Source of the DNA: Powellomyces hirtus
Lineage: Eukaryota; Chytridiomycota; Chytridiomycetes; Spizellomycetales; Powellomycetaceae
Reading direction: 5' to 3'
NCBI GenBank assembly: GCA_025526995.1
Contig: JAHLKG010000010.1
Coordinates: forward strand, 868,001-932,000
Length of the DNA stretch: 64,000 nucleotides
Part shown: positions 30,837-39,141 of the stretch, piece after piece
Position numbering within the stretch: the stretch's first letter is position 1
How the letters are laid out: each line of letters starts with the position of its first letter
Notes under the pieces: model-generated
Seen by the model: only the letters and a program-made list of their open reading frames with translations
Told to the model about the DNA's origin: nothing
The model's database searches: none
Position numbers and translations under genes: made by a program

Positions 30837-30841
30837 ATGAT

Positions 30842-31116
30842 TGTAATGAGGCGTGGCTCGCCAACCTAAGCCTAGACACGCGTCGGGAAGGACCCCGCGT
30901 GAGATGGATGCTAGCGTCAGCATCCCGAAGGGTACTAGACCTCAGGGATGGCCACGGATGGCCATCACGTGACCGGGACCGCCTCGCGGTCCAGAAGAAA
31001 AGTAGGAATACTCAGACGAGGGCGTATTCAAGACTTAGAGATCTTACAGTAGAACTAGACATAGGGAATTCCCGAATAGAAGACTAGACTCTGGCAATGG
31101 ACCTAGTATTATTACA
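30842..31116 (+). repeat. 5' LTR, 275 bp
   Basis: Begins TGTAATGAGGCG and ends GTATTATTACA, with a 6-bp terminal inversion TGTAAT/ATTACA. It differs from the 3' LTR by one A/C and two C/T substitutions, all in the right half. Confidence 0.97.
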
Positions 31117-31131
31117 TGGTAGCACCACCCC
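31117..31131 (+). other. Putative primer-binding site
   Basis: TGGTAGCACCACCCC follows the 5' LTR directly; the leading TGG pairs with a tRNA 3' CCA. I could not assign the primer tRNA from memory. Confidence 0.6.
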
Positions 31132-31144
31132 GTAGACGACAACA

Positions 31145-32371
31145 ATGGCACGTAGCACCAGGAACAGCCCAATGGCAGGGGAAAGCCCAGCAGTAGGAGA
31201 ACCCGAAGTCAACACACCGACCGACAACCCCGTCATAATGTTGGCTGCACAATTGGCGGAGACCCAACGCCTACTGCAGGAACAGATTGCAATGGGAGAG
31301 GCACGCTTTGCCACCCTTCTTTCAAGGATTCCAACTCCAGTCCAACCGACAGCTGCAACACCGCACGTCGACATCATCCTGGCGGAAGAAAACCGAGCAC
31401 GAATGCAAGCCGAGAAGGAACGCCACAAGAACCTTTGCAAGCAGCTGACACACTTCAACGGAAAAGGGAACAGTGAAGAAATGGTGTCGAAGGTCGATGA
31501 GTTCTTGAAGGTCCACACGCACTACCTTGAGGCAACCGACTTCAGGACGGACCACCGGGACGTCGACCACATCTCGGGGTACCTCAAGCAGACTGCCGAC
31601 GAGTGGTGGCAAATGCTCAGAGATGCCGGCGACCTGCTCACAACATTGGAAGAGTTCACAAGGACACTCCGCACCCGCTTCTATCCCGCCAACTTACGAA
31701 ACCTCGCAGAGGCAAAGATGAAGTGGCTGGTTTTCACTAATAGCATATCGGAATACATCGCCAAGTTCAATACCCTTCGGGCCCAGATCGCAACGCTTGA
31801 CGATAAGGAGCGACTTACCCCACGGCAAGAGCGCGACTACTTCTTGACCGGATTCTCAACCAACCATGTCGGCCAGCGCATTCGAGACCACTGCTATGCC
31901 GCGATCATGAGGAACAACGGCGCTGAGATTCCGATCACCGAGCTACAGAACGAAGCCCTGTTATGCTACAAAATTCGAGGCTATGCAGACGACCTCGCAC
32001 GGGTGACCCCCGACGGGAGAAGACGTCAGTACGCTGCAGTCCAGCCAGCCCAGGTCCACCGAGGGAACTATCAAACACGAGAACGGGGGCGCCACACACC
32101 CTATGGCTCAGGCCGTCCCACACGCGGTATGGACAACTACCAAGGGACTTCACACCGTGAGCGCACCATCTACAATGAACGCTGGGAGCGCAACGAATGC
32201 TTCAATTGCGGGGGCAACGGGCACTACGCCCGTGGGTGCCCAGCAAGTAAAGGCAAAGCCGGTGAGCATAGGACGTTCGCTGCCCCTGTAGAGATCACTG
32301 AAGGGTCCGGAGACGAGGCGGTCAGCGACGGGGGCTCAGTCAACAGCTCGGATTTTTGCTTCGGGTGCTGA
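31145..32371 (+). CDS. gag: Retrotransposon Gag with CCHC knuckle
   Basis: 408 codons from ATG 31145, uninterrupted. The central capsid-like region includes FNGKGNSEEMVSKVDEFL, DEWWQMLRDAGDLL and FYPANLRNLAEAKMKWL, typical of Ty3/gypsy retrotransposon gag. Near the C-terminus a zinc knuckle CFNCGGNGHYARGC (C-x2-C-x4-H-x4-C) would bind the genomic RNA. The end overlaps pol, which lies in the -1 frame. A run of five T (GATTTTTGC, near 32,351-32,359) in the overlap is a possible slip site for -1 frameshifting. Confidence 0.93.
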   Translation: MARSTRNSPMAGESPAVGEPEVNTPTDNPVIMLAAQLAETQRLLQEQIAMGEARFATLLSRIPTPVQPTAATPHVDIILAEENRARMQAEKERHKNLCKQLTHFNGKGNSEEMVSKVDEFLKVHTHYLEATDFRTDHRDVDHISGYLKQTADEWWQMLRDAGDLLTTLEEFTRTLRTRFYPANLRNLAEAKMKWLVFTNSISEYIAKFNTLRAQIATLDDKERLTPRQERDYFLTGFSTNHVGQRIRDHCYAAIMRNNGAEIPITELQNEALLCYKIRGYADDLARVTPDGRRRQYAAVQPAQVHRGNYQTRERGRHTPYGSGRPTRGMDNYQGTSHRERTIYNERWERNECFNCGGNGHYARGCPASKGKAGEHRTFAAPVEITEGSGDEAVSDGGSVNSSDFCFGC

Positions 32372-35300
32372 ACGCTTGCACCGTCTCAGTACCCCAACCC
32401 CGGATGCAAGACAAGATCCCCACGGACAGACCGGGACTCCGCATTCACAGGAAGACATTTGTGGTCCACGGGAAGGTACAAGGGCACTTTGCCCGCATCC
32501 TAATCGATACCGGATGTAACACCCTGATTATCAGCGACACTTGGGCCGCCAAACACAGCCTCCGGACCTACACCTCTCCAACTCCGCTGGAGGTCCGGTG
32601 GGACGACAGAGCGGGAAACTACGGGGCAACAAAGATGACCTGTGGGGACCTCTTGGTGTTCACCGAGGAGAAGATCACCTACCGGGAGGATACCGTACTG
32701 TTCATGGTCACGCCGATCAGGGTCGATGCCATACTGGGCTTGCCATTCATATTGGGGCTGGACGTCCGAGGGCTCTTCGACCAAGGGGGCTTTCCAACGA
32801 TGACGTTCTACCACAACGGCCAGACCCTCAGCCTTCAAGCCAAATCGACCAACCGCCATTGGGAAGCACCGTCCGCGTGCGCCGCCCGCCTACTCTCCCC
32901 ACGAGAGGTACGGCCCCGCAGATTCCAGCCGGCAAAGCCAGCACTCAATGCAGAGGGAATCTACACGGCCAAGCAATGGAAACGCTTGATGAAGAAGGGC
33001 GAGATCACTGGAGTTTTCGAGGTACACATCGTAGATGCAATTCCAGTTGCAGAGGCTCAATTCGTACGGACGGTCGACGCCAAGAAAAGGGCAATCTTGG
33101 AGGAACGACACCACACCAACATTGAAGCCAAGGCGGCAGATCAAGAGGACCCGCTAGAGGCGCTGGCAGCCGACCATCCACTCCGACTGACCCTAGAGAA
33201 ATACGTCACGACGCTATTCACCAAGCAGTCAGGCATGCCTCCGGACCGAGGCGAGGACAATTTCACCATTCGGCTCAAACCCGGCTCGAAACCCGTGATG
33301 CAGCCACTCCGGCATTTGAGCCCTGACGAACTGGACGAGCTCGGCCAGCAGATGCAGCGTTTAATGGACAAGGGTTGGATCTCACACTCTTGCAGTCCGT
33401 GGGGCGCGCCCGTCCTATTTGCCCCAAAGAAGGACGGCGGCCTACGCTGCTGCATTGACTACCGGGCACTGAACAAGATGACTCACAAGGATGCCACGTC
33501 ACTTCCGAACCTCTCGGAGCTGCGCGACAGGCTTGTCAACATGCGGGTATTCACCGCGATTGACATCCGCGACGCGTACCACTGCATCATGATGCGACCA
33601 AAAGATAGGGAGAAAACAGCGTTCCGAACACGTTTTGGACATTTCAAATACAATGTTCTACCTTTCGGCTTAATTAATGCACCTGCTACATTCCAGCGAC
33701 TAACCAACAAACTCTTGGGCAACAAGTACAACGCCTACGTGATCTCATACCTCGACGATATTCTCATATTCAGCACCGACATGAGTTCGCACATTCAGCA
33801 CGTCGACGAGGTCCTCAAGACCTTGGCGGAACATCGTCTCCACATCAAACCCAGCAAATGTCAATGGGCGGTTGACAAAGTCGAGTTCTGCGGCCACCGA
33901 GTCGGCAAGGATGGCCTGAGTATCGCCCCCTCCAAGGTGACTGCGGTCCGGGAACGACCTCGCCCGACCAACTCCCTGGAGCTCCTTAGCTTCATGGGCC
34001 TCGTCAACTATGTCAAGGAATACATCCCCAAGTATGCACAGATTGCCCTACCACTAACGCATCTGCAATCCGGCAACCGCCCATGGCAGTGGGGTGACGA
34101 GGAAGATCGAGCGTTCAATCGCTTAAAGGAATTATTCTCCTCGGCATCCACCCTAGCGTACTTCGACCCGGCGCTTGACACCTACTTGTTCACGGACGCA
34201 TCGGGCTATGCCTACGGCAGATGGCTGGCACAGCCGGCCGCAGGGGATTTCCCATACCCTCATCCACTACCTACCACCAAATCAGGCTTGGCTAACCTTC
34301 CACAACTTCGCCCGGTGACATACTACTCCCGCAAGATGCAACCCGCCGAGACCCGATACCCCGTACATGAACAAGAACTGCTGGGGCTGGTCAAATCCAT
34401 ACGCGCCAACCGCCATTACCTCATCGGCCGCCCTTTCCGTGCTTTTGTCGACCACAAATCCCTGATCTACCTTCAGGAACAACCCCACCTGTCACGTCGC
34501 CAAGCGGGCTGGGTCGAGTTCCTCCAACAGTTTGATTTCTCAGTGGAATACCTCCCCGGCACATGGAACTCGATCGCCGACTTCCTAAGTCGCGATCCGA
34601 CTTACGCCCCCAAGTGTGCGACCTGCCAGGCCAAGATCGACGTGGTCACCGCCATTGTGCAACCGGAGATAACCGCAACGACGCACATGCCGACCGATGC
34701 GGACTGGACCCGAGCGCTCGCATCCGATGATTTTGGCCAAAACATCCTACTAACCCTTGACGGCCCACAGGAGAACCTGTCCGGCCATGCGCGCCGATTC
34801 CGGGCAGTGGACACCCCTCCGGACTGATTCTTGATGTACCACAACCGTCGGTACGTCCCCGACAGTCTACGGGGGCCACTTCTTCAGACCCATCACGACT
34901 CCCTTGCGAACGGCGGCCACTCCAGTGTACAACGGATGCTTGCCAAACTTCTGGAGTCGTACTATTGGCCTCACATGGAGCGTGATGTGTACCAATATGT
35001 CCGCACTTGCCCTACATGCCAACGTCACAAGCGCGCCGCACCGATCGGCTTCCTCCGCAGCTTACCGATCCCCGACACTCGTTGGCAACAAATCGGCATG
35101 GATATATTCTTCCCCACATCAGGCTCTAAGGGGGGGGGAACCTCGGGTAGAGCCCGACGTGACGAAGAACCCTTCGCACCACACCGGCGAGAGACTGACC
35201 AAAACGGCGGACGCCGTACTCCTCATCGTTGACTATCTTTCATGCCGCGTGATACTTCTACCTACTAACACACGCGCTACAGCTCAGGAGACGGCTCAAC

Positions 35301-36270
35301 TCTTTCTGGAACAGGCATTCCGCCACACGGGGTTACCCCACACCATCGTGAGCGATCGGGACCTCAAGTGGCTATCAGAATTCTGGAGGTACCTGATGCG
35401 GGCACTCGACGTCAAGCAGGAACTCTCGTCGGCACGACACCAACAGACCGACGGCAAGGCGGAGAACGCCATCAAGATGATCAAGGGAATCATGGGCCCC
35501 TATCTTGACTATGCCGGCTCCAACTGGAAGAGTTTACTCCCCACCCTCGAGTACAACTACAACTGAACGCCGCAGATGTCGACGGGACTATCCCCTTTCG
35601 AGATTGACCTAGGCCGCGTTCCCCGAGACCGAACCAATGGGTAGCACCTAACCCCGGGGAGATGATAAGGCAATTGGCACAAACCGCCGTGGAGAGACGG
35701 ATTAAGGAATTTGCCGATGTGAGTCGCATCATGCAGCAACGGCTCCGAGACGCACAGGACCAGCAGGCAAAGTACTACGACCGCAAGAAGCACGCGGAAG
35801 CATACCGAGAGGGTGACAAGGTCTTACTTCATTGCGAGGGTATCGCGATTACCAGCGTCACCATAAGGAACAAAAAGCTGGCTGAGCAATGGATTGGGCC
35901 ATTCACAGTACGCGGCAAGGGCCCGCATCCTGACACCTACGAGCTCGAACTACCCAAGGAGTTCACCGGGTTGCACCCAGTCTTTCATGTCAGCATTCTG
36001 AGACGTTACCATGACCCGGGCGGTACCCCGTACAGACAGGTCACCGTCCTGCCTGAGCCCGAGGAGGACGAAGACAGTCAGGAGACCTACCAAGTGGACA
36101 AGATCCTAAATGCCAGATGGCACAGGAACACCGAGCAGTTCTTAGTCAAGTGGACAGGTTACGACAACACTCAGAACACGTGGGAGCCGTATGCACACAC
36201 GACCGCACTGGAAGAATGGCTCCGGGAACACCCCGGAGAGGACCGCGGCCAAAGGCTAGCAGCCAGGTGA
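32356..36270 (+). pseudogene. pol: Retrotransposon Pol: PR-RT-RH intact, integrase disrupted, chromodomain
   Basis: Open from 32356 (no ATG; -1 relative to gag) to a TGA at 34825. Seen in order: aspartic protease LIDTGCNTLII; RT with FTAIDIRDAYHCIMM, LPFGLINAPATFQRL and catalytic ISYLDDILIF; RNase H with FTDASGYAYGRW and YPVHEQELLGLVKSI. After the TGA the same frame resumes with an HHCC integrase zinc region (HHDSLANGGHSSVQRM, CPTCQRHK). A run of about nine to ten G near 35,131-35,140 changes the frame. The DDE core (LLIVDYLS, IVSDRDLKWL, DGKAENAIKM) follows in the new frame to another TGA at 35564, and a further frame change leads to the C-terminal part (35662-36270). That part carries a chromodomain (YQVDKILNARW, LVKWTGYDNTQNTWEP). 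Four lesions confined to the integrase make this copy defective. Confidence 0.9.
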
Positions 36271-36358
36271 CGTAAGAGAACCTAGATAGCGAGCTGTACC
36301 GTAAATTAACAAGAGAGATGCTACTTGAGGTAAAGGACATTATAGGGCGAGATTCCGG

Positions 36359-37056
36359 CATCGTTGGACGATGGCTGAAGGCTGCTGGGCAGCATACCTC
36401 ACTGGGTGAGATGCCGGGATCGCTGGGCAATGAGCCGACGGCTTGCCGATGCAAGGTGACCGGCACCAGATTTGCATGGCAGCGTACCTCGAGACCTGCG
36501 GGGACCATGGCCGTGGTACGTACCTACGCAAAGGGGAAGAGAAGGGCTTCGGCCAAGATACCGGCATCGTTTGACGATGGGCCGAAGGCCGCTGAGCGGC
36601 ATACCTCACTGGGTGAGAAGGGTGATGCTGGACATCGACCAGCTTGCCGATGCAAGGTGACCGGCACCAGATTTGCATGGCAGCGTACCTCGAGACCTGC
36701 GGGGACCATGGCCGCAGTACATACCCACGCAAAGGGGAAGAGAAGGGCTTTGGCCAAGATACCGGCATTGTTTGACGATGGGCCGAAGGTCGCTGGGCGA
36801 CATACCTTGCTGGGCGAGATGCCGGGATTGCTGGGCGATGAGCCGAAGACTGCGAGGCAGTAGACCTCACGAAGTGAGATTCCAGCATCGTTGGACGATG
36901 GCCGAAGGCTGCTGGGCAGCATACCTCGCTGGGCGAGATGCCGGGATCGCTGGGCAATGAGCCGAAGACTGCGAGGCAGTAGACCTCACTAGGTGAGATA
37001 CCGGCATCGTTGGACAATGGCCGGGGAACCGCTGGGCGGTCTTCCCAACGGGGAAG
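36359..37056. repeat. Array of about 20 short hairpins with co-varying stems
   Basis: Between pol and the antisense gene, short inverted repeats with 5-bp stems and 3-5-nt loops occur back to back. Three classes alternate with fixed linkers such as GCCGAAG. Class a stems: GCTGC/GCAGC (36381-36393, 36908-36920), GCCGC/GCGGC (36588-36600), GTCGC/GCGAC (36789-36801), ACTGC/GCAGT (36849-36861, 36968-36980), ACCGC/GCGGT (37028-37040). Class b: CTCAC/GTGAG (36398, 36605, 36866, 36985), CTTGC/GCGAG (36806), CTCGC/GCGAG (36925). Class c: CATCG/CGATG (36359, 36565, 36886), CATTG/CGATG (36766). The array ends with CTTCCC/GGGAAG (37041-37056). A block of about 200 bp, including the hairpin CTTGC-CGAT-GCAAG, is duplicated (from 36441 and 36642). 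Stems change on both sides while pairing is kept. Confidence 0.85.
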
Positions 37057-37287
37057 TGTGATGCAGGGCATCTACCATGAGCACCATAGCCGGGAAGAAG
37101 CCGAGTGACATTGGACACAGCGGACGCATACGAAATGCTACAAGGCTCAAGGGAGCACAGCGATGAGAAGGCAAGTACAGCGATGAGATTTTGGTACTGA
37201 ATTTGATTACGGCCCGGAGGCCAGGCCCCAAGGGAGCAACAGACAACAATCGAAAGTATATACAAGAAAGAGGGGGGGGAGAACTAA

Positions 37288-38030
37288 TCAACCAATCTTG
37301 GTGAAGGAGAATTGGCACCGATTGCCATGGCACCGGTCGCCCAACCCGCACCGGAGGGGGGTGTAATTTGCCACGTTCATCTCGCTGCGAAGAGAGCTGA
37401 GTTAGTCAGGTAAGACAGCAGCAGGCCGAAGAGTACTACTTACGCGCGGACGTGGCCCATGCAGTGGAGATGGTTGCATGGAAACATGCGGAGGTCCACC
37501 CCGACATGGTTGCAGCCAGCGAACTGGCACCCGGCGGGGATGGCCGCAAAGAAGAGGACCCGGCCGCGGTGGGGGGCGCCGCACGTCAACTGGCCCTGAG
37601 GGCCGTTGTTCTGGAAAGCAAAGGAACAAAGGAACCACACCGTTAGGAAGGCATCAGGCCGCCCCTCGGCGAAAGGAGAACATACCGTGTTGTTGGCCGC
37701 CGCCACGATGCAGGGCCGGCACACCAGATGGTGGCATTCCAACGTGAACATCTTGCCCTTGCGGAAAAGATGGCACTTCCAGCAAGCGGACCAGTCGGCC
37801 GACCCCTCGGGGGTGGACTTTTCATGGACCGAAGGGTCCTGTAGATAACAAAGGAAGACGGGCACCATGAGACGAGTTGCCACACCCGAGGATGAGCCCC
37901 AACCCCGACTTACCCGAGCGGGCTGGGCCCGCTTGGTTGCGCCTTTCGCAAGTTGTTGGGCGGGCCGGCGCTTGCCCATGGTGGTGGTGGTGTCGGGAGG
38001 GGGAGGAGAGTTGTTGGGGGTGTCAGCCAT
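37288..38030 (-). CDS. Antisense four-exon Cys/His-rich (RING-like) protein inside the retroelement
   Basis: ATG at 38030 on the strand opposite to gag-pol. Exons 38030-37914, 37838-37686, 37610-37444 and 37384-37288 join through three GT-AG introns (75, 75 and 59 nt) into 177 uninterrupted codons ending in TGA. Exon 1 is Pro/Thr-rich then basic. Exon 2 carries CWKCHLFRKGKMF, then LECHHLVCRPC. Exon 3 carries LTCGAPHRG, AGCQFAGCNHV and FPCNHLHCMGH. Exon 4 carries RCGLGDRCHGNRC. The spacing resembles a RING or related cross-brace zinc fold, but I recognise no exact family. A (GT)n tract (about 38,033-38,073) lies just upstream of its ATG as leader or promoter. Such introns survive retrotransposition because they are not spliced from the sense RNA. 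The function is unknown. Confidence 0.75.
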
Positions 38031-38073
38031 GGTGTGTGTGTGTGCGTGTGTGTGCGTATGTGTGTGTGTGTGG

Positions 38074-38480
38074 TGTGAGTTCGTCGAGCTACAAAGAAGA
38101 GAAGAGTGAGAGGGGGAGATTCAACGGGCAGTGCCTTTTAAAGGCTCGATCTGCCTGGGAACACTCGGAAATTCAGGTGTTAGTGTTTCATCCCCTACGG
38201 AGCGCAGCAGATGTTACTTATCGAAATCCGCATGGAGGAAGCTACTCGTGATTCATCTAGGGCCACTGCGAAGAGAGAAATAGACTTTCCGACGACTTCA
38301 CGCACCACGAAGGGCGGAGACTACCCGCCGGAGACTACCACGACGCGACCCGCACCAGGGCCGCCTCCCCAGCCTCATCTTCCCACAACCACGTCAGCAT
38401 CCGTTAACCCGATGCCGCCCGGCTTAGGCAAGCTTCGCCTCGCTGAAGAGATTCAAGCCTAAGAGATAGTAGCAAATCTA
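38074..38480. other. Spacer between antisense gene and 3' LTR
   Basis: About 400 bp, presumed promoter of the antisense gene. It contains an 83-codon sense frame (38211-38462) rich in Pro/Thr/Arg without a motif; I regard it as unsupported. Confidence 0.4.
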
Positions 38481-38487
38481 AGGGGGG
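38481..38487 (+). other. Polypurine tract
   Basis: AGGGGGG immediately precedes the 3' LTR, in the place expected for the plus-strand primer of reverse transcription. Confidence 0.75.
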
Positions 38488-38762
38488 TGTAATGAGGCGT
38501 GGCTCGCCAACCTAAGCCTAGACACGCGTCGGGAAGGACCCCGCGTGAGATGGATGCTAGCGTCAGCATCCCGAAGGGTACTAGACCTCAGGGATGGCCA
38601 CGGATGGCCATCACGTGACCGGGACCGCCTCGCGGTCCAGAAGAAAAGTAGGAATACTCCGACGAGGGCGTATTCAAGACTTAGAGATCTTACAGTAGAA
38701 CTAGACATAGGGAATTCTCGAATAGAAGACTAGACTCTGGCAACGGACCTAGTATTATTACA
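38488..38762 (+). repeat. 3' LTR, 275 bp
   Basis: Same length and ends as the 5' LTR with three substitutions; followed by the target duplication ATGAT at 38763-38767. Confidence 0.97.
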
Positions 38763-39141
38763 ATGATGCAGCGTTTCCGCAACCTAAAGTTGCTATCATC
38801 TTGGAACAATATTTTTCTACCAATCCAATCTCAATCAACAATTCAGTCATAGAATGCATTCAAAATCGCGCAATTCACATTCAACCTGAGAGCTGAAGGA
38901 ATGTTCTGTGTTTAAGCCGTGATGGATAATAAAGCAGTGACCTTGTCCTATTTATCACTATTGCTACCTGTCTTAGGCATGTGACAGGTTTTGTGATGGG
39001 AAAAAAGGGACTGAGTTTGGGGAATAGAGTTGAACTTGGTATAGTTCAGATTCACAACATGTAGGTGTCAACTATTGAATCCATTTTAAGATTTTAAAAG
39101 CTCACTCAGGGGATTTCAACCTGTAACTTATGAGCATTCCC

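Follow-up and report, generated by a model that had tools for sequence, protein, structure and literature searches.

Between pol and the 3' LTR of a retrotransposon of the chytrid Powellomyces hirtus stands a series of short hairpins whose two arms vary while staying complementary, and this raises the question of whether the pairing itself has been kept by selection, whether it could instead stem from arm-to-arm repair or from mutation bias, and what such an array might do for the element. The stretch analysed here (the window) comprises 64,000 nucleotides of contig JAHLKG010000010.1 (positions 868,001 to 932,000 of the forward strand), and coordinates are counted from its first letter.

The retrotransposon carrying the array lies wholly inside the window (30842-38762). 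Self-BLAST delineates its 5' LTR (30842..31116, TG...CA), immediately followed by a primer-binding-site-like TGG, and a polypurine tract recognised in the sequence (AAGGGGGG, 38480..38487) stands ahead of the 3' LTR (38488..38762); the LTRs measure 275 bp, are 98.9% identical to each other by self-BLAST, and are flanked by the target-site duplication ATGAT at 30837-30841 and 38763-38767. On the same forward strand lie gag (31145..32371; Retrotrans_gag and a CCHC zinc knuckle by Pfam) and pol (32356..36270), the latter divided in the window copy among three separate open frames, namely protease-like/RT/RNase H, integrase, and SH3-like plus chromodomain; long unbroken pol frames are present in other copies of the element. 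Pfam recovers the order gag, RT and RNase H, then integrase and a C-terminal chromodomain (E 2.6e-11), the protease and integrase matches falling under its cut-offs. Both the LTRs with their target-site duplication and this domain order place the element among the Ty3/gypsy chromodomain elements (chromoviruses), and the closest P. hirtus pol proteins among the matches listed share 79-89% identity over 37-78% of the query. Separately, a G-rich tract followed by TGTAAT at 37354-37366 resembles the polypurine-tract/LTR junction at 38480-38495 and, judging by this resemblance, may be what is left of a former 3' end.

The array, an unstranded feature at 36349..37072, occupies the gap between pol and the 3' LTR and is built from three-hairpin units of about 60 bp, with two spacer blocks between them. 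The window copy has about 22 in-register hairpins of 13 nt (a 5-bp stem and a 3-nt loop). Perfect ones number 15 within 36359-37056, whereas 1000 dinucleotide shuffles yield 0.69 on average and never more than 4. Allowing loops of 3-5 nt raises the count in the same interval to 21 (three of them a second reading of hairpin 1), as compared with a shuffle mean of 2.2 and maximum of 10; a single mismatch is present in six further in-register hairpins, and just past the interval, at 37060-37072, comes a perfect GATGC-AGG-GCATC. A 59-nt unit with three hairpins is similarly far from chance, since 200,000 mononucleotide shuffles produced no case with three hairpins and 142 cases with two. Hence, the original prediction of some 20 short-stem hairpins is borne out, as are all seven of the arm pairs it quoted. 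The hairpins are not all back to back, as it had described them, but are split by the two spacer blocks, each of about 130 bp.

In order along the window, a degenerate hairpin (CTACT TGA GGTAA, 36321..36333) precedes the array; the census contains its perfect form, CTACC TGG GGTAG, as 2 of 92 hits, and the diverged stretch L094 shows that form too. The array then presents ATCGT.TGG.ACGAT, GCTGC.TGG.GCAGC, CTCAC.TGG.GTGAG and the singly mismatched ATCGC.TGG.GCAAT (36360..36431), and continues with the first spacer block (36432..36564, which includes CTTGC.CGAT.GCAAG), with ATCGT.TTG.ACGAT, GCCGC.TGA.GCGGC (at 36588) and CTCAC.TGG.GTGAG (36566..36617), and with GATGC.TGG.ACATC (one mismatch) plus the second spacer block (36624..36766). 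Census hits for the perfect GATGC.TGG.GCATC number 55, and those for the form in the window 4. Next, at 36767..37018, 13 hairpins follow one another without interruption and make up about four units; five of the 13 have one mismatch. The array closes with ACCGC.TGG.GCGGT, CTTCCC.AACG.GGGAAG and GATGC.AGG.GCATC (37028..37072). The spacer blocks themselves (36432-36564 and 36637-36766) are 96% alike, have 78 matching stretches in the genome, and are absent from some copies (e.g., L088 and L096). A coding role for the array was considered and judged unlikely because unit lengths of 59 or 60 bases shift the frame; long open frames nonetheless cross it on both strands. A search of 36200-37450 against Rfam 15 returned no match at the gathering score, the one match being at chance level (E 0.4; 19.6 bits against a cut-off of 71), and a 17-base piece of the array matched six viral contigs, which is taken to be near chance.

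Searching the 29.3-Mb genome (60 contigs) with the array yielded at least 88 matching stretches, 40 of 103 candidates having been scored. The stretches compared comprise 40 arrays, 50 more that were mostly picked for lying next to a copy of the antisense gene described below, and 20 from diverged families, which stand outside the unit counts. The unit pattern gave 932 matches in the first 90 loci; 388 with more than two mismatches in a stem were dropped, 352 of these being register slips of kept units and 36 other losses. The 544 units that were kept (332 distinct sequences) come from 86 of the 90 loci, at 1 to 11 per locus, with none recovered at L074, L075, L092 and L101. The shortest of the 40 arrays measures 764 bases and the longest 1081, with lengths that often differ by increments of roughly one unit. 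Within the unit, the three hairpins share one format and differ in their arms: hairpin 1 has ATCGT/ACGAT or ATCGC/GCGAT; hairpin 2 has GCTGC, GCCGC, GTCGC or ACTGC with their complements, and ACCGC/GCGGT at the array end; and hairpin 3 has CTCAC/GTGAG or CTCGC/GCGAG. The commonest loops are TGG, TTG, GAG, TAG and AAG, and a fourth kind of hairpin, GATGC/GCATC, carries the loops AGG, TGG, CGG, TCA or AAG.

Evidence on selection for pairing comes from the 17 unit types that recur in at least 4 loci each, out of the 332 distinct sequences, and that are taken to be ancestral. Of their 15 stem pairs 8 are invariant and 7 vary, and six of these seven change on both sides only (UA/CG, GC/AU, CG/UA, UA/CG, CG/UA and AU/GC), with no one-sided variant; pair 3 of hairpin 1 is the sole variable pair with one-sided or unpaired variants. 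Shuffles give 3.6 such both-sided pairs on average, and 6 of 500 get to six. Pairing holds in 99.6% of 255 cells, a percentage that the filtering on stem mismatches makes somewhat too high, as against 93.3% after shuffling and 13.7-50.4% with the partner slid, and the covariation score is 0.288 as compared with 0.155 and 0.018-0.084, respectively. The number of further standard pair types shows no excess (7 against 10.5 in shuffles, all 500 of which reach 7). The controls were a shuffle, a slide and a spanning tree applied to units from one genome, and the shuffle figures ignore relatedness, such that related sequences may exceed them without any structure. On the spanning tree of the 17 types, both-sided changes number 7 and one-sided changes 4, with a site-weighted null for the former averaging 0.86 and reaching at most 5 in 1000 trials. 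The excess persists with 24 types found in at least 3 loci (7 both-sided against 1.06, maximum 4) and with 82 types in at least 2 (10 against 2.0, maximum 8), and is gone among all 332 distinct units, most of them decayed (7 against a null mean of 4.06 and maximum of 11). As the excess fades when rarer units enter the tree, covariation is confined to the recurrent types; further, the units are related through duplication, and so the independent events are few (about 6).

Hence, compensatory change, which had been put forward as a signature of selection on pairing, is supported for the recurrent types (7 against 0.86), and its excess disappears in the full set of 332 (7 against 4.06). One of its supposed components, namely conserved loops and linkers between changing arms, is contradicted by the per-site rates: on the spanning tree of all 332 units stems change 9.03, loops 8.67 and linkers 9.0 times per site, and the corresponding figures for the 17 commonest types are 0.60, 0.78 and 0.55. 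The idea of the loops as the conserved part was dropped on these rates. With these revisions, selection on pairing is the most probable of the explanations for the stems, and we assign it a rough probability of 0.48, its rivals being template-switch repair and mutation bias.

The second of these rivals is best weighed against the manner in which single copies decay. Across the 544 units, TpCpG is where the single-arm changes of hairpin 1 concentrate: its two CpGs have 97 and 92 on their outer side and 18 and 27 on the other, and these sums (189 against 45) put C-to-T at TpCpG about fourfold above the opposite side of that CpG. As the arms are reverse complements, the same mutation context strikes both partners, and the bias falls equally on paired positions. 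At the hypermutable pair 3 of hairpin 1 double changes (TA) number 18, where 16.3 are expected under independence, which is no covariation, and at pair 3 of hairpin 3 (CTCGC types) there are 9 where 6.9 are expected; the single-arm variants look like neutral decay. This decay at TpCpG, as seen in these stems, is possibly a case of context-dependent deamination in a chytrid. On this basis one could propose that CpG-type sites mutate symmetrically and that chance double mutants then spread by duplication, with no constraint on pairing. In keeping with such an account, every both-sided change that separates recurrent types is a transition, and the covariation excess vanishes among all distinct units; mutation bias can contribute on account of these transitions and of the contexts shared by reverse-complement arms. 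However, pairs 1 and 2 of hairpin 2 are non-CpG in the listed types and are nearly all-or-none; pair 1, for example, is GC in 348 of the 544 units, AT in 183, GT in 7, AC in none and otherwise in 6, and the compensated pairs as a group are similarly near all-or-none across these units. The both-sided changes also exceed a null that is itself site-weighted, and the common format of three hairpins with unlike arms would be left unexplained. As a whole account, mutation bias with duplication hence appears distinctly unlikely.

The other rival is mechanical: if reverse transcription or replication switched templates at short inverted repeats, one arm would be copied onto the other and pairing thereby maintained without selection. 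Such switching is reported to create and maintain RNA hairpins, which resemble those of the array in their compensatory changes within short stems (PMC8794818); its described marks are multiple compensatory changes, stem extension, loop changes and loop inversion. The almost purely Watson-Crick pairing of the recurrent stems, and the few intermediates at compensated pairs, would be expected from it. However, whereas simultaneous multiple changes are enriched and some loops inverted in the hairpins of that paper, the recurrent arm types of each stem are joined here, by eye, through single-pair steps, and the stems stop where the flanks no longer match (for hairpin 1 an extra C-G pair is possible, and a further stem past a bulged G). 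Inverted loops, the clearest footprint of the process, number 0 of 1632 when scored as the reverse complement of any of the five commonest loop types; odd loops outside the 1632 are TCA in two GATGC/GCATC census hits and one CAA in the upstream hairpin. This argument is a modest one, since inversions are reported as very rare, and since isolated compensatory changes are also described as uninformative (PMC8794818), template switching remains a serious rival. Repair of this kind, which the original prediction had itself offered, is accordingly retained as an alternative, though one we consider somewhat unlikely and whose loop-inversion footprint did not appear among the 1632 loops.

Selection on pairing directs attention to the molecule that folds, and here the neighbouring gene is relevant. 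An antisense accessory gene (37440..38030, reverse strand), with a weak RING/C3HC4 match under the Pfam cut-offs, has its 3' end toward the array and ends about 370 bases from it, which would place the array, by position, in the presumed 3' untranslated part of both convergent transcripts, i.e., those of pol and of the antisense gene. Nine antisense genes, those intact among the ten best matches, show dN 0.050, dS 0.131 and dN/dS 0.38, with dN<dS in 35 of 36 pairs. The gene has 153 matching stretches in the genome, many beside Ty3/gypsy arrays, and 46 of the 50 stretches chosen mostly beside its copies contain an array match. The gene also exists in a diverged form (about 34-48% identical), which adjoins arrays that are mostly still 85-92% alike; L101 lacks an array. 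Up to about 37242 several of the copies that carry the diverged gene are a good match to the main family, past that point a poor one, and the drop in similarity suggests module exchange by recombination. The array was also considered as the place where the two antisense-gene subfamilies recombined, an idea dropped because homology appears to run about 180 bp past it. The sole database relative found for the antisense protein is a 91% identical "oncoid" in a 21-kb record named "Powellomyces chytrid fungus MELD virus 1"; given the 153 stretches and their frequent Ty3/gypsy neighbours, the viral label may stem from a retroelement in that contig. No relative of the protein was found among the viral contigs searched, and no polinton-type polymerase was found in the genome, the control genomes being equally without a match.

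Folding predictions distinguish the strands. The fold z-score of the window array is -3.97 for sense and -6.22 for antisense (20 shuffles each), and that of a two-unit stretch is -1.77 and -3.64 (200 shuffles). Mean pair probability over 18 common units is 0.90 on the antisense and 0.72 on the sense strand, against 0.69 and 0.57 in a control with the unpaired letters shuffled. The antisense strand has the higher pair probability in 36 of 36 comparisons (6 of the 86 arrays, three hairpin classes, both span limits), and in the same six arrays the sense strand at longer spans often favours other pairings. On either strand the unit has a fold of lower energy than the three-hairpin structure (-22.1 against -14.9 kcal/mol for sense; -23.6 against -14.1 kcal/mol for antisense). 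Taken together, the predictions point to the antisense RNA or the minus-strand cDNA as the likelier molecule to fold. Wobble intermediates show no strand bias, 37 being wobbles in the sense and 30 in the antisense strand when summed over the six compensated pairs. A function at the DNA level, either as palindromes bound by a dimeric DNA-binding protein or as sites of recombination or strand transfer in minus-strand cDNA, would fit the arrayed palindromic sites, the presence of the antisense sequence in minus-strand cDNA, and the formation of hairpins on both strands of the 18 common units under DNA parameters (0.85-0.95). However, a site for a DNA-bound dimer is expected to keep its arm sequence, which here differs between hairpins and covaries, and the boundary between antisense-gene subfamilies appears past the array and not inside it; we regard this possibility as very improbable.

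The hairpin format persists in diverged copies of the element, about 60-73% identical in protein at the pol end. Counted over the best 700 bases, perfect hairpins number 11 in L110, 9 each in L094 and L095, and 6 in L109, with a shuffle maximum of 3 for each of L109, L110 and L111; retention of the format is clear in L110 and less so in L109 and L094. In L111, whose pol gives a first match at 47% and a second at 73% over part, the 4 perfect hairpins are a slight excess over that maximum. Seventeen other stretches, 16 from distant Ty3/gypsy copies at 37-42% identity and one (L112) beside a 76% fragment, show at most 4 hairpins per 700 bases, within the shuffle range. As the 16 more distant copies lack an excess and L111 has only a slight one, the array is not needed by this type of element and is instead a feature of one branch.

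The original prediction had also held the array to be no known part of Ty3/gypsy elements. As to additional antisense genes in fungal retrotransposons, Zhao et al. in 2011 reportedly described one, brtn, in Boty/BcGypsy1 of Botrytis. The window element is likewise a fungal retrotransposon with an additional antisense gene; the Botrytis work is cited in PMC7264820 and PMC8365987, the former of which also reviews antisense genes. In plants, Retand elements of Ty3/gypsy have a long gap between pol and the 3' LTR with antisense ORFs, as in the window element, and about half of them bear tandem-repeat arrays there, of reportedly unknown function (PMC11963269). Unlike the window element with its Chromo domain, Retand belongs to a non-chromovirus lineage, with an antisense TRP28 protein; TRP28 is not among the Pfam matches of the weakly RING-like window antisense ORF at E up to 0.1. 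Membership in Retand was considered and rejected on these Pfam matches. Short tandem repeats of variable monomer sequence and length likewise occur inside Ogre/Tat elements downstream of gag-pol, and these are described as hypervariable and as a source of satellites; compensating stems, as found in the array, are absent from that description as far as the accessible text goes (PMC7004042). The word "hairpin" has no occurrence in the main text of PMC11963269, nor in PMC3248453, and a limited check of the open-licence literature found no paper that combined hairpins or stem-loops with retrotransposons. The claim of novelty was hence too strong with respect to repeats and antisense genes, and holds up better for the hairpin design: it is this design, and not tandem repeats or an antisense gene in the gap, that looks unusual.

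If selection on pairing is the correct reading, the array would be a structural module, amplified in tandem, that works as single-stranded nucleic acid. Selection would have kept its stems paired in the transposing lineage, with base pairs probably swapped one at a time through tolerated wobbles, and individual copies would then decay without sign of pairing constraint. The hairpins could serve as a multivalent binding platform on the element RNA, for Gag or for the RING-like protein encoded in antisense, and might act in packaging or stability; the presumed 3' untranslated region of the antisense mRNA would be the strand with the best predicted hairpins, and the sense genomic RNA would carry the same array. 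In a more elaborate version, a self-encoded RNA-protein circuit, the hairpin array at the end of the antisense mRNA would be recognised by the RING-like protein or Gag through its shape and not its sequence, such that the arms may drift freely while pairing holds and packaging or silencing would be controlled where the sense and antisense transcripts converge; we consider this version quite improbable.

Many elements have tandem repeats between pol and the 3' LTR, with a function reported as unknown (PMC11963269), and as a countable and variable hairpin module with compensating arms, the array makes the question of what repeats in this gap do a testable one. It also offers a natural test of selection against template-switch repair and mutation bias as the source of compensatory change, with the dead copies of the element as a built-in neutral control.
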